From Bacteroidota bacterium (GTDB lineage Bacteria > Bacteroidota > Bacteroidia > Chitinophagales > LD1): a stretch of DNA of 64,000 bases. How positions within the stretch are numbered: position 1 is the first letter of the stretch; each line of letters begins with the position of its first letter. Under the pieces are notes generated by a model. It saw nothing but the letters and a program-made list of their open reading frames with translations. It was not told the origin of the DNA and searched no databases. The stretch lies in contig JAFDYN010000008.1 of assembly GCA_018267385.1 (NCBI GenBank), positions 126,622-190,621 on the forward strand, given 5' to 3'. A program made the position numbers and the translations under genes. Positions 17,427 to 52,054 of the stretch are shown one piece after another.

Positions 17427-17456
17427 AGTATTAAGTAGTTAGTATTAAGTATTAAG
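17427..17456 (+). repeat. four-heptad repeat, AGTATTA type
   Basis: Units AGTATTA, AGTAGTT, AGTATTA, AGTATTA in direct tandem (28 bp), then AG. It begins four bases from the rimO start codon. Confidence 0.85.
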
Positions 17457-18465: not shown

Positions 18466-18495
18466 AGTATTGAGTAGTTAGTATTGAGTATTGAG
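18466..18495 (+). repeat. four-heptad repeat, AGTATTG variant
   Basis: Units AGTATTG, AGTAGTT, AGTATTG, AGTATTG in tandem, then AG. It begins five bases upstream of the ftsY start codon and differs from the copy at 17427 by the same A-to-G change in three units. Confidence 0.85.
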
Positions 18496-29143: not shown

Positions 29144-29246
29144 AGTATTAAGTAATCAGTATTAAGTATTTAGACTAATACACTTAGTACCTCTGATTTC
29201 GTTTGCTGCATTTTATCTTAATACTAAATACTAACTACTAAATACC
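29144..29246. repeat. inverted pair of four-heptad repeats, empty form
   Basis: The left copy (29144-29171) reads AGTATTA, AGTAATC, AGTATTA, AGTATTT. The right copy, on the minus strand (29246-29219), reads GGTATTT, AGTAGTT, AGTATTT, AGTATTA. Both continue with AGA toward the 42-bp interior, which holds no gene. The left copy starts three bases after the VWA stop codon. Confidence 0.85.
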
Positions 29247-47288: not shown

Positions 47289-47328
47289 GATTTACAGATT
47301 TACGGAATTACCGATTTACAGATTTGAA
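47289..47328 (+). repeat. octad repeat, GATTTACA type
   Basis: Units of eight: GATTTACA, GATTTACG, GAATTACC, GATTTACA, GATTTGAA. It resembles the heptad elements in build but has an 8-bp unit. Confidence 0.6.
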
Positions 47329-47351
47329 CTTAAATCTCCCAAAGAAACTAA

Positions 47352-47424
47352 CGGTTAAAACACGAAGAGCGCAAAAGATTTTCAGGAATTCTTTTTGCGT
47401 TTCTGCGCTTTTGCGGTTAAACCT
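47352..47424. repeat. inverted pair of CTTTTGC-type repeats
   Basis: The right arm (47391-47422) has octads CTTTTTGC, GTTTCTGC, GCTTTTGC, GGTTAAAC. The left arm, on the minus strand (47377-47352), starts CTTTTGC, GCTCTTC, GTGTTTT, AACCG. Thirteen bases separate them. The 3' end of the transporter gene lies 10 bases away. Confidence 0.6.
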
Positions 47425-47433
47425 GTATTAAAT

Positions 47434-48222
47434 CTAATCATCCGCCCTCGCTGCTTCATCCTTTAGCCGCTTGGCGAGATCATGCCCCAGATAGCGCTCT
47501 ATAGCCCCGTGTATGACGTAGATCAGCGGCGTGAGAGCAAAGGCCATGATGAACTTGTAGATATAGTTTACTGTACCCACAGCCAGTACCAGTTTGAGCG
47601 GCCATTGCTGATTGGTACCGCGATACGCAAAGTAGAACGCATAAAACAGCACCACATAGCTGTCTACAAACTGTGAGATGAAAGTAGACCCCGTACTGCG
47701 CAGCCAGATGTACTTCTCCCCTGTGCGTTTCTTGACCCAGTGGAAGATATAGACGTCTGTGATCTGCCCGATCATAAACGCAATGAGCGACCCCACAATG
47801 ATATTATTACCCTGTCCAAAGACGGCATTATAAGCATGTGAGAAATCAAAGTCAGGTCCATACTGAGACGTGTGTATCCACCAGTCTGCCGGTGCTACGT
47901 GTATGGCCAGGTTCAGCATCAGGTAGGTGTAGGCGATCATCGCCGCAGCTATGAAAGAAAGGAACCGCACCCCACGCGTACCAAAGTACTCATTGATGAT
48001 ATCTGTAAAGACAAACACAAAGGGCCACAGGATCACACCGCAAGTGAGACTGAAGCCCGTGATATCCTGACCAAACAAATGAAACGTATGCTTGGACCAG
48101 CCGAAGGTGTCCTCCAGTGAGAATATCTTCACGCCCATAAACTCCGCCACCACCGCATTCGTCAGAAAGAATGCTGCTAGGAAAATGAAGACACGGTTTT
48201 GTTTTTCCTTTATAAACTGCAT
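47434..48222 (-). CDS. yhhQ: queuosine precursor transporter (YhhQ/DUF165)
   Basis: A 262-residue polytopic membrane protein of the YhhQ (VUT1) family that imports 7-cyano- or 7-aminomethyl-deazaguanine for queuosine in tRNA. Diagnostic stretches are FFLTNAVVAEFMGVKIF, FVFTDIINEYFG and the region TGSTFISQFVDSYVV. About six to seven hydrophobic helices can be drawn. A heptad repeat starts three bases upstream of the start codon. Confidence 0.92.
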   Translation of the reverse strand: MQFIKEKQNRVFIFLAAFFLTNAVVAEFMGVKIFSLEDTFGWSKHTFHLFGQDITGFSLTCGVILWPFVFVFTDIINEYFGTRGVRFLSFIAAAMIAYTYLMLNLAIHVAPADWWIHTSQYGPDFDFSHAYNAVFGQGNNIIVGSLIAFMIGQITDVYIFHWVKKRTGEKYIWLRSTGSTFISQFVDSYVVLFYAFYFAYRGTNQQWPLKLVLAVGTVNYIYKFIMAFALTPLIYVIHGAIERYLGHDLAKRLKDEAARADD

Positions 48223-48225
48223 ACA

Positions 48226-48675
48226 GGGAATAAGGAATAGGGAATAAGGAATAATGTTTGACGCGTCATACTTTATTGAGTTTTGCCTTTGCAGTCTTGA
48301 TGCCTGATGTCAATAGTTTTAAAAGTTCTTCCACATCTTTCTTCAATGATTCAAAAGGTGTTTCTTCTATAAATCCTGTTACGGCAAGAAGCTCCAGCCA
48401 ATATAAAGTCTCGTTAGCTTCCTTGATCGCGATAGAGCACTTATGTATAAAGTCCGGCCGTGTCTGAGCAGATTCTGACTCTCGCACCATAGCCCCTATC
48501 GCAGTGCCAGATCTCAGGCACTGCTTACTCATCACATATTCCTTCTTCGTCTCACAGAGATAGGTATAGAGTTTCACGATCCTTACAGCAAAGGAAAACG
48601 ATTTGCTCTTAGTAATACTATCCTTCATAAGTCCCCATTTGCATTTCTATTCCCTATTCCTTATTCCCTATTCCT
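48226..48675. mobile_element. four-helix-bundle gene cassette bounded by inverted four-heptad repeats
   Basis: The left end (48226-48253) is GGGAATA, AGGAATA, repeated twice. The right end (48648-48675) is the same 28-bp tandem in inverted orientation, shifted by one unit. The 450-bp unit contains one complete small gene (48266-48628) and fills the whole gap between the yhhQ start codon and the leuS stop codon. Mobility is inferred from the architecture. Confidence 0.7.
48266..48628 (-). CDS. four-helix-bundle protein (23S rRNA IVS / Avd-like family)
   Basis: A 120-residue helical protein of the TIGR02436/PF05635 family. Hallmarks are SFAVRIVKLYTYL, the QCLRSGTAIGAMVRESESAQTRPDFIHKCSIAIKEANETLYWLELL core and the C-terminal ELLKLLTSGIKTAK helix. 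Relatives are encoded in intervening sequences of 23S rRNA in Leptospira and others, or act as the Avd accessory protein of diversity-generating retroelements, where they bind nucleic acid as pentamers. No rRNA or reverse transcriptase is nearby. The gene is wholly inside a pair of inverted heptad repeats. Confidence 0.92.
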   Translation of the reverse strand: MKDSITKSKSFSFAVRIVKLYTYLCETKKEYVMSKQCLRSGTAIGAMVRESESAQTRPDFIHKCSIAIKEANETLYWLELLAVTGFIEETPFESLKKDVEELLKLLTSGIKTAKAKLNKV

Positions 48676-48676
48676 T

Positions 48677-51600
48677 TTAAACAACCACATTCACTATCCT
48701 ACCCTTCACAAAAATGAACTTCTTTGGTTCTTTACCCTCTGTCCATTTCAGTACGACATCATTCGCCAGCACGGCTGCTTTCACTTCTGCTTCGCCCATA
48801 TTCAAATCAAACTGCAGATTAGCCCGCACCTTGCCATTGATAGAGATCGGATAGCTGAATGAGCTTTCCACCAGGTACTTTTCCTCTACGGCAGGGAAAG
48901 TCGCCTTATGAACGCTATCGCTGTGACCGAGTGCCGCCCACAGTTCATCACTGATGAAAGGTGCAAATGGCGCAAGTGCGATCACCAGCGGCTCCAGTAT
49001 CGCACGCTTGGTACACTTCAGCTCGATCAGCTCATTGGTACAGATCATGAACTGGCTCACGCAAGTATTGAAGGCCAGGCGCTCGATGTCTTCTGATATT
49101 TTCTTCAGCGTCTTGTGCAGCACTTTATATTCTGCATCGGTAGCCGCCTCATCGCTCACGCGTGATGCGCCTTTATCATCATAGAATAGCCTCCAGAACT
49201 TACGCAGGAATTTCGCCACGCCATCTATGCCCTGATCATCCCACGGCTTAGACTGATCCAGCGGCCCGAGAAACATCTCAAACATCCGGAAGCAATCCGC
49301 ACCATACTTCTCTATCACATCATCAGGATTGACGACGTTGTATTTGGACTTGGACATTTTTTCGACAGCGAAATCCACTAAGTATTCCTGATTATCATTC
49401 AGGATAAAAACAGACCTTTCAAAATCAGGTCTCCATTTTTTATAGCCTTCTATATCTAATTTGCCGTCCTCCGCTAGCCTTATGTCCAAGTGCCAATCAT
49501 TTATTTTGACATTGTCCCAAAAAACATTTTTCGCATCTCCACCATACTCTTTTATTAAATCTTCAATTAGAGTAGTTAATCGGGGAGTGATTACTTTCCC
49601 ATTACTCAAATAGTCATTATAGAATTCCTTTGAAACAAATACATATGGCACTTTATGAACTGTAGAATCACTTGACTCCCAACTTAGCAAATACACAAAC
49701 TTACTCACCCCCTGTATCATCCCCTGATTCACCAGCTTCTGAAACGGCTCCTCTGTAGGTACATAGCCCAGGTCATGCAGGAACTTGTGCCACATACGGG
49801 AGTACAGCAGGTGGCCCACCGCGTGCTCGCTGCCACCGAGGTAGAGGTCTACATTCTGCCAATAGTCTATCTTCTCCTTCGCCGCAAAGGCATCCGGATT
49901 ATTCGGGTCCATATAGCGCAGGAAGTACCAGCTAGAGCCAGCATAACCCGGCATCGTGTCAGTCTCGCGCTGACCATGTGATGTATTCACCCAGTCGGTT
50001 GCATTGGCCAGCGGTGAGCGGCCATCGCCTGATGGCTTGTAGCTCGTCACGTCTGGCAGCACGACCGGCAGCTCGCTCACCGGCAGTGGGTATGGCAGGT
50101 CACCCTTGTACACGATCGGAAATGGCTCACCCCAATAGCGCTGGCGGCTGTAGCCCGCATCACGCTGGCGGTAGTTCACCTGGCGCTTGCCTATGCCGAG
50201 CGCTTCCACTTTCTCCAGCATGGCCTTGATCGCATCCTTCACCTCCATGCCGTTGATGAAGTCGCTATTGATCATCTTGCCGACCTTGTCCTCTATGGTC
50301 GCGCCGGGATACATGCTTTTGTCTATCACTTCTATCACCGGCAGGCCAAATTTCTCCGCAAACTTCCTGTCGCGCTCATCATCTGCCGGTACGGCCATGA
50401 TGGCACCCGTGCCATAGCCCGCCAGCACATACTCCGCCAGGTAGATCGGTATGCGCGCGCCGTTGAATGGATTCAGCGCATAGCTGCCCGTGAAGGCACC
50501 CGTCACGCGCTTCTCCTGCTGGCGCTCTATATCGCTGCGGCTCTTTACGTAGGTGATGTAGTCGTCTACTTCCTTCTGCTGTGCAGGCGTGGTCAGAGAT
50601 GCTACGAGCTCATGCTCGGGGGCTATGACCATAAAGGTCGCGCCGAAGATGGTATCAGGACGGGTTGTAAAAACAGCCACCTCACCCCCCGCCCTCTCCA
50701 AAGGAGAGGGAGCTAATACATCCTCATTAGTTTCTGAAGTGATAGCGCCATCGTAAGGGACATCCGGCAGAGAGTCTAACCTGGACTTGATCTGTTGGAT
50801 AACATTATCAATGTTTGCAAATACAGCTTCGTTCTTGAAACGGATTATCTCGAAGCCGAGCCGTCTCAAGTCACTTGTTCTCTCCTGATCAGCTTCTTGT
50901 TGATCATTGTGGATCGGACCATCTATTTCGATTACTAGACGTTTGAGAATGCAAACGAAATCTGGGATATACGAACCGATCAAATGTTGCCTTCTGATCT
51001 TATGACCAGTAGCATTACCTCTTAATCTCTGCCAAACTATTTCTTCGGCCTCTGTCGGATCATGTCTGTGCTCTTTAGCCTTTTCAATATTGGCATTCCA
51101 CGACAAAGGATCGGTGTGGTAAAAACCCGGCTTGCCTGTATTTGTATTTAAGCCCTCTCCTTTGGAGAGGGTTTGGGTGAGGTTAAACTGGATGATTGCC
51201 CCCTCTGACCTGCCTATCCAGTTGCGCTGCATATCCTTCATGGCTTCGCTCCAGTCCAGCGTGTCCAGCCCGCGCAGCAGGCGGTCAGAGTACTCGGTGA
51301 TCCTCAGGAACCACTGCCGCATCTTCCTCCGCTCTACGGGATAGCCGCCGCGCTCAGACTTACCGTCTTTCACCTCATCATTGGCCAGCACGGTGCCCAG
51401 CGCCTCGCACCAGTTCACCTCGCTATAGCTCTGGTAGGCCAGGCGGTAGTGCATCAGTATGTGTTGCTGTTCTTCTTCAGAGAAGCCTTTCCACTCCGCT
51501 GCGGTGAATGGCGCATGGTCTTCTTTATCAAACTGCGCAAAACCATCCGTACCACTTTGCGCAAAGCGCGCGATCAGCGTGTCGATGCTTTCTGCCTTAT

Positions 51601-52054
51601 CCTTTTCACGATTGTACCAGCTGCCAAAGAGCTGGAGGAAGATCCACTGCGTCCACTTGTAGTAGCTTGGGTCACAGGTCTTGACCTCGCGGCTCCAGTC
51701 ATAGCTGAACCCGATCTTGCCCAGTTGCTCCTTGTAGGTGGCGATAGCCTTGTCAGTAGTGACTTGTGGTGGCGTACCGGTCTCTATGGCATACTGCTCT
51801 GCCGGCAGGCCAAAGGCGTCAAAGCCCATCGGGTGCAGCACGTTGAATCCCTTGAGCCGTTTGTAGCGGGCATAGATATCAGAGGCCACATAGCCCAGCG
51901 GGTGCCCCACATGCAGGCCCGCACCGCTCGGATACGGGAACATATCCAGCACATAATACTTTGGTTTCGAGGCATCTTCAGTCACACGGTAGATCCCCTT
52001 ATCCTCCCAGTCTTTGCGCCACTTCTTTTCTATGGCTCTGAAATCGAACTCCAT
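48677..52054 (-). CDS. leuS: leucyl-tRNA synthetase with an in-frame DUF559 insertion
   Basis: A 1125-residue class I synthetase, about 170-200 residues longer than the phylum's usual LeuRS. HIGH box HVGH lies in PYPSGAGLHVGHPLGY. The editing domain has TTRPDTIFGATF and GTGAIMAVPADDERD, and KMSKSKYNVVNP marks the end of the catalytic core. At residues about 291-458, between RNWIGRSEGAIIQF and VFTTRPDT, a complete DUF559 nuclease domain bounded by palindromic repeats is inserted without breaking the frame. A second stretch (residues about 788-895, before KMSKS, where the leucine-specific domain lies) is visibly AT-rich. LeuRS is essential, so this gene probably yields active enzyme. Confidence 0.95.
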   Translation of the reverse strand: MEFDFRAIEKKWRKDWEDKGIYRVTEDASKPKYYVLDMFPYPSGAGLHVGHPLGYVASDIYARYKRLKGFNVLHPMGFDAFGLPAEQYAIETGTPPQVTTDKAIATYKEQLGKIGFSYDWSREVKTCDPSYYKWTQWIFLQLFGSWYNREKDKAESIDTLIARFAQSGTDGFAQFDKEDHAPFTAAEWKGFSEEEQQHILMHYRLAYQSYSEVNWCEALGTVLANDEVKDGKSERGGYPVERRKMRQWFLRITEYSDRLLRGLDTLDWSEAMKDMQRNWIGRSEGAIIQFNLTQTLSKGEGLNTNTGKPGFYHTDPLSWNANIEKAKEHRHDPTEAEEIVWQRLRGNATGHKIRRQHLIGSYIPDFVCILKRLVIEIDGPIHNDQQEADQERTSDLRRLGFEIIRFKNEAVFANIDNVIQQIKSRLDSLPDVPYDGAITSETNEDVLAPSPLERAGGEVAVFTTRPDTIFGATFMVIAPEHELVASLTTPAQQKEVDDYITYVKSRSDIERQQEKRVTGAFTGSYALNPFNGARIPIYLAEYVLAGYGTGAIMAVPADDERDRKFAEKFGLPVIEVIDKSMYPGATIEDKVGKMINSDFINGMEVKDAIKAMLEKVEALGIGKRQVNYRQRDAGYSRQRYWGEPFPIVYKGDLPYPLPVSELPVVLPDVTSYKPSGDGRSPLANATDWVNTSHGQRETDTMPGYAGSSWYFLRYMDPNNPDAFAAKEKIDYWQNVDLYLGGSEHAVGHLLYSRMWHKFLHDLGYVPTEEPFQKLVNQGMIQGVSKFVYLLSWESSDSTVHKVPYVFVSKEFYNDYLSNGKVITPRLTTLIEDLIKEYGGDAKNVFWDNVKINDWHLDIRLAEDGKLDIEGYKKWRPDFERSVFILNDNQEYLVDFAVEKMSKSKYNVVNPDDVIEKYGADCFRMFEMFLGPLDQSKPWDDQGIDGVAKFLRKFWRLFYDDKGASRVSDEAATDAEYKVLHKTLKKISEDIERLAFNTCVSQFMICTNELIELKCTKRAILEPLVIALAPFAPFISDELWAALGHSDSVHKATFPAVEEKYLVESSFSYPISINGKVRANLQFDLNMGEAEVKAAVLANDVVLKWTEGKEPKKFIFVKGRIVNVVV
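50679..51183 (-). mobile_element. DUF559 (Vsr-like) nuclease cassette with inverted repeat ends, inside leuS
   Basis: Both ends carry ACCTCACCC pointing outward, followed by the palindrome CCCTCTCCAAAGGAGAGGG (50692-50710 and 51153-51171). Between them is a DUF559 domain (LeuRS residues about 309-430): TEAEEIVWQRLRG, RRQHLIGSYIPDFVC, LVIEIDGPIHN and LGFEIIRFKNEAV, with PD-(D/E)xK-type acids intact. Its frame has no ATG or GTG; only a TTG (51106) could start it. Translation probably depends on leuS. The whole is about 505 bp. Confidence 0.85.

Follow-up and report, generated by a model that had tools for sequence, protein, structure and literature searches.

The window analysed here, a 64-kb stretch from the genome of a member of the Bacteroidota (the source genome, G000), contains a small gene enclosed by short tandem repeats. 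The gene (48266..48628, minus strand) encodes a four-helix-bundle protein of 120 amino acids that belongs to the '23S rRNA IVP' family (TIGR02436/PF05635), called IVP below. Downstream of the gene lies an array of four 7-bp units, GGGAATA AGGAATA GGGAATA AGGAATA (left array, 48226..48253, plus strand), and upstream of it lies an inverted copy of four units in the same order (right array, 48648..48675, minus strand). The cassette has a total size of about 450 bp. Two host genes mark the insertion site, yhhQ (47434..48222, minus strand), which encodes a queuosine-precursor transporter (TIGR00697), and leuS (48677..52054, minus strand; TIGR00396), which has an in-frame DUF559 domain inside. The left array abuts the yhhQ start codon, beginning 2–3 nt from it at 48222, and the right array abuts the leuS stop codon, with its end at about 48675–48676 and the end of the leuS reading frame at 48677. 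The gap between the two host genes holds a single ORF, that of the IVP protein, and no other gene. A first-pass annotation had placed the gene between two inverted four-unit heptad arrays and had the cassette fill the leuS–yhhQ gap exactly, and the window sequence bears out both statements. Its description of the ends as 28-bp inverted copies holds in part: there are two 28-bp arrays in opposite orientation, but they do not match in full register. The alternation of the units runs in the same order on both strands, so that the longest perfect inverted match between the arrays covers 22 bp at an offset of one unit, and not 28 bp in register.

A three-unit pattern, RGGAATARGGAATARGGAATA, is confined to the two cassette arrays within the 64-kb window and has no match in 100 shuffles of the window. 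The cassette lies outside a 23S rRNA gene, between two protein genes, and an Rfam search at the site gave no match to an RNA family. Heptad arrays very often end 2–5 nt from a neighbouring start codon (in the window at about 48225 and at 18466, and at locus L490 elsewhere); ends close to start codons have also been reported for the TAACTGA repeats of Beggiatoaceae (PMC4679880).

The ORF, read from an ATG start, matches both family profiles well above their curated cut-offs, TIGR02436 at 5.5e-27 (94.1 bits, cut-off 24) and PF05635 at 5.5e-25 (88.1 bits, cut-off 33.8), and by these matches the protein is a member of the family. In a profile search of the protein PF05635 was the sole match, and no nuclease, transposase, polymerase or HUH/Y1 signature was found. 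The solved structures 2gsc and 2rld were recovered as relatives with the family alignment. Family members are present in 223 of 296 Bacteroidota genomes sampled; to our knowledge this widespread family has no known function. Strong purifying selection acts on the protein: dN/dS is about 0.05–0.1 for pairs with a measurable dS, and the closest pair has a value of 0.035. A phage origin was rejected, as a phage collection contained no IVP relative.

The source genome contains five IVP family members and all five lie inside inverted repeats. Heptads are clear at four of these copies and degenerate at the fifth (L005). The packaging thus recurs within one genome with a different unit for each copy: AGTATTT at L001, TTAGACG at L002, GGAATAR in the window, GAATAGT/GAATAGG at L004 and a GGGACGA-like unit at L005.

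A survey for flanking 7- or 8-bp arrays in inverted orientation had been set out beforehand as a check on the first-pass annotation. We gathered 272 distinct IVP loci by homology, best scores first, of which 220 are from Bacteroidota, 38 from other phyla (including Planctomycetes, Firmicutes, Proteobacteria, Acidobacteria and Omnitrophota) and 14 from cyanobacterial plasmids; 1030 genes taken from the same DNA served as controls. Among these phylogenetically non-independent loci the enrichment is strong: 113 of 272 IVP loci have two-sided 7- or 8-bp arrays, but no more than 19 of the 1030 controls do (Fisher p about 8e-66). This outcome favours the first-pass annotation, and the control genes reject the ideas of chance arrays and of simple slippage. 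At least four of the 19 array-flanked controls are IVP copies that had been removed as duplicates, and most of the others have unlike arrays on their two sides. The unit length at IVP loci is seven in 90 cases and eight in 24, any other period from 4 to 13 occurring at no more than two loci each. The second array is inverted in 102 of the 113 two-sided loci. Four units per side is the commonest copy number (52/108 and 41/108 loci), and in 127 of 144 loci G outnumbers C in the arm upstream of the IVP gene. About 58% of the surveyed members are without clear two-sided arrays, through decay, short arms or other ends.

Packaging, unit length, orientation and strand polarity are shared across phyla. 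Inverted-repeat arms with a score of at least 14 were found at 112/220 IVP loci of Bacteroidota versus 12/877 controls, and at 24/38 IVP loci of other phyla versus 6/78 controls. On the cyanobacterial plasmids such arms are present at 8 of 14 loci and heptads at 12 of 14. The latter include AGTAGGG, AGGGAAC and AGGTGAC, and in sequence they look like the STRR repeats of these organisms. No conserved 23S rRNA motifs were found at any fetched IVP locus, so the '23S' in the name of the family refers to a minority habitat. In plasmids of two cyanobacterial genera, IVP cassettes are situated between cas6 and cas4 of CRISPR loci (L492, L496; type I-D in Anabaena).

Comparison of orthologous sites shows that the IVP cassettes are insertions. 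The leuS–yhhQ gap, which the first-pass annotation had proposed to compare in sister strains, is empty or otherwise occupied in sister genomes, so that the IVP gene proves to be no fixed resident there: in G004, whose yhhQ is 97% identical, the gap has neither gene nor heptads and a short palindromic element is found instead, in G006 it contains another gene, and in G013 it is reduced to a few bases. The cassette at L005 is present in G000, G003 and G004 and absent in three sister genomes (G001, G005 and G006), where the stop codon leads directly into the next start codon. In Nostoc plasmids, the gap after a TraM-like gene holds an IVP cassette in two strains, is empty in others and in one plasmid (L506) contains inverted arrays without a gene. 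An IVP cassette fills the nrdB–nrdA gap in Nostoc edaphicum; in Calothrix NIES-4105 this gap is empty. These filled and empty sites indicate that arrays and gene arrive together, and the several empty sites and the gene-less version support the mobility that had been suggested for them. Insertion of the IVP gene into pre-existing arrays is disfavoured, because the empty sites are without arrays and the arms are inverted and not direct. No clear target-site duplication was found at the few empty sites compared, and some insertions replace host spacer DNA. The palindromic element in the leuS–yhhQ gap of G004 (L425) has the sequence TGTAGAGACGCAATACTTTGCGTCTC..., and this gap seems to be a favoured place for various small repeat elements.

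Solo arrays that share the units of IVP cassettes are scattered through genomes, mostly those that carry an IVP gene, and most are single arms without a partner. The window contains two of them, one of AGTATTA type, the unit of the L001 cassette of the source genome, with no gene (17427..17456, plus strand), and one of AGTATTG type (18466..18495, plus strand) 4 nt from the start codon of an ftsY-like gene. It also contains two AGTATT-type arrays in inverted orientation with no gene in the roughly 50 bp between them (29144..29245, unstranded), and this site is empty in the sister genome G002. Across the source genome the AGTATT-type pattern has 38 matches versus 3 for a reversed control pattern, and dispersal of repeats apart from the gene is seen genome-wide for both AGTATT and TTAGAC units. 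AGTATT solo arrays are frequent in two genera of the family (g1 and g3), and none of the 16 genomes from other families has any. Their number follows similarity to the L001-type protein in the 25 genomes of the family (Spearman 0.78, a value confounded by genus); within g3 the correlation is 0.65 (p = 0.016) and within g1 it is not significant. Three genomes without an IVP gene yielded no heptad arrays in a sample of 269 kb; one of these three, G015, has 3 AGTATT matches genome-wide. G016 and G018 have AGTATT solo arrays without a close cognate IVP gene. At the start of the ftsY-like gene an AGTATT unit is found in G000 and G004 and a TTAGAC unit in G001 and G005 (L433, L444, L439, L436, L443). 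Judged from these sequences the unit at a given site can switch, a pattern reminiscent of the Nostoc trnL intron, where one 7-nt class has repeatedly given way to another (PMC4476775).

IVP loci with more similar proteins also have more similar arrays. Within the family of the window, with permutation within genomes only, the correlation (rho) is 0.33, compared with 0.075 ± 0.058 under the null (p = 0.002). Between families the arms follow the protein (rho 0.19, p = 0.003), whereas the DNA just inside the arms does not (rho 0.02, p = 0.35) and the DNA outside them hardly does (rho 0.05, p = 0.10). Linked inheritance alone should touch the inner spacer too. Together with the purifying selection on the protein these results support recognition, short of proof, and the co-variation may partly reflect co-inheritance. 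The earlier suggestion that the protein recognises the heptads is indirectly supported by this co-variation and by the solo arrays that track a related gene; binding itself we infer from these sequence comparisons.

The cassette shares features with several known systems. The 23S rRNA intervening sequence (IVS) of Coxiella burnetii has a protein of the same family, inverted ends that form a long stem and a similar size. This IVS is 428 nt long with a 28-bp terminal stem, is excised by RNase III, and has heptameric tandem repeats, GACAGAT, upstream of its ORF (PMC4990558). The window cassette differs in lying between protein genes and in having full heptad arrays at both ends, and the units of IVP cassettes are specific to their clades and are found scattered as solo arrays too. 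REP/RAYT systems (REPtrons; PMC2817692, PMC8266576) and REPINs (PMC3116915) likewise have a single gene flanked on both sides by a short repeat in inverted orientation; further repeats, single or paired, are scattered between genes, and gene and repeat co-vary. Unlike RAYT proteins, IVP has no HUH/Y1 tyrosine transposase domain, and its repeats consist of 7- or 8-bp units in tandem, whereas REP is a palindromic hairpin. The Avd protein of diversity-generating retroelements (PMC10053308) is an oligomeric, nucleic-acid-binding four-helix-bundle relative, but there is no reverse transcriptase or template/variable repeat beside the window gene, whose neighbours are leuS and yhhQ. Of the two hallmarks of a classical insertion sequence, a transposase gene and a target-site duplication, the IVP cassette has no transposase gene, and a clear duplication was not seen at the few empty sites compared.

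Tandem heptads similar to those of IVP loci are found in cyanobacterial STRRs, in Xanthomonas (GGGAATC; PMC4692102), in Beggiatoaceae (TAACTGA; PMC4679880) and in the P6b element of trnL introns (PMC4476775). As in the IVP arrays, they often have four units and are mostly intergenic, and the IVP-associated arrays, being tandem 7-bp units between genes, are of STRR type. Nostoc-type units (AGGGAAC, AGTAGGG) flank IVP genes on cyanobacterial plasmids. The origin of the heptads was left open in the work on Xanthomonas and Nostoc (PMC4692102) and on Beggiatoaceae (PMC4679880). The heptad papers cited here treat the repeats alone, and we found none that names the IVP family as their companion; in the open-access literature the one connection of IVP with heptads that we found is a comment on a single Coxiella element.

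We therefore propose that the IVP gene and its inverted 7- or 8-bp arrays probably constitute a minimal mobile element, in which the protein reads its own unit and helps to copy or insert the element. The two arrays, typically of four units (28 bp) each, would be the ends of the element. The protein would most likely recognise its unit either as DNA or as the RNA stem formed by the paired arrays, and would take part in copying the cassette, as well as solo arrays in trans, or in inserting them into short intergenic gaps. That the protein drives this movement, by mobilising or copying the cassette, we infer; the enzymatic step, and any host polymerase or nuclease taking part in it, are presumed. 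RNase III removes the stem of 23S IVS from the transcript (PMC4990558), and similar excision would explain how insertions in operons and rRNA are tolerated. The 23S rRNA intervening sequences would then be IVP elements that landed in rRNA.

It is also conceivable, though we think it unlikely, that the IVP protein is cargo, the arrays being moved by a host transposase, reverse transcriptase or repair process while the protein has another role such as binding an RNA stem or regulating a neighbour. The protein has no catalytic family match, solo arrays occur in some genomes without a close cognate gene, and genes unrelated in sequence are packaged in a comparable way in the same genomes: GxxExxY (PD-(D/E)XK-type) genes lie in inverted repeats in 48% of cases and DUF559 genes in 60%, both from small samples, so that a common trans-acting mover is possible. 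The arms of these two families nevertheless differ in sequence from those of IVP and are not heptads; period-7 arrays were found at 60 of 221 Bacteroidota IVP loci versus 1 of 28 GxxExxY and 0 of 10 DUF559 loci. A generic mover moreover predicts no tracking of protein by unit, yet the unit tracks the protein both across families and within genomes, and within g3 the number of AGTATT solo arrays follows the similarity of the L001-type gene. A chance proximity of the IVP gene to ordinary microsatellites born by slippage is scarcely credible. Array copy number does differ between close relatives (L491 versus L507), as slippage would have it, but the two-sided enrichment, the restriction to periods 7 and 8, the inversion of the second array in 102 of 113 loci and the modal four units all speak against this, as does the absence of arrays at empty sites.

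A further explanation is that the arrays act mainly as RNA, forming a stem cut by RNase III, with the protein binding the stem or the excised RNA and movement being rare and incidental. The RNA of the window cassette is predicted to form a long terminal closing stem (MFE z = -3.68), the upstream arm is G-rich at most loci, and precedents exist both in the stem, excision and upstream heptamers of the Coxiella IVS and in the P6b stems of the Nostoc trnL intron, which are built of 7-nt repeats (PMC4476775). The order of units in the two arms is however only weakly co-ordinated (mean z 0.55 versus unit shuffles), and unit counts are equal on both sides in only 31 of 108 loci. This weak matching indicates that the main constraint is something other than a precise RNA stem, and an exact stem as the sole constraint is rejected, in-register complementarity being only weakly above that of unit shuffles. 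Most solo arrays, as lone arms, have no partner with which to pair, and the repeated presence and absence at sites shows mobility. We regard a mainly RNA role as distinctly improbable, and favour the minimal mobile element.

The recurrent packaging across phyla points to a role for the IVP family and to an origin for the puzzling 7-letter repeats. A shared element offers a testable explanation both for the family and for the heptads of cyanobacteria, Xanthomonas, Beggiatoaceae and Nostoc introns, and in its light 23S rRNA intervening sequences become one of the places where a widespread element lands. More tentatively, and with rather less confidence than in the minimal element itself, we suggest that this may be a new class of mobile element, in which a small pentameric four-helix-bundle protein that has no known catalytic domain reads arrays of about 28 bp made of 7- or 8-bp words and copies or inserts them, different clades writing different words. 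Such a class could be the common source of 23S IVS, STRRs, GGGAATC and similar heptads, and trnL stems. The IVP clades form a naturally diversified set of protein–word pairs.

Other repeat-packed or unusual segments were observed in and around the window. The GxxExxY loci (L126–L155) have quasi-periodic arms, AACCGCAAAGNCGCAAAG, and each family has its own kind of arm. At the other end of yhhQ (47289–47420) there is an octad array of 4.6 copies of GATTTACA followed by a gene-less hairpin, the arms of which, GCGCAAAAG...CTTTTGCG, are like those of GxxExxY cassettes. Within leuS, a segment of about 320 bp (49371–49690) has kept its length but has no DNA-level alignment to sister genomes, and is either fast-diverging or replaced. 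Stand-alone DUF559 genes lie inside inverted repeats at L008, L169, L174–L176 and L182. The in-frame DUF559 (Vsr-like) insert of leuS (50777–51085, minus strand) is bordered by the peptides LTQTLSKGEGL and APSPLERAGGEV. In other relatives DUF559 is found inside ORFs of 1081–1447 amino acids, for example at L006, which has an IleRS-like beginning, and these sequences suggest that the DUF559 nuclease domain may spread in frame through large genes.
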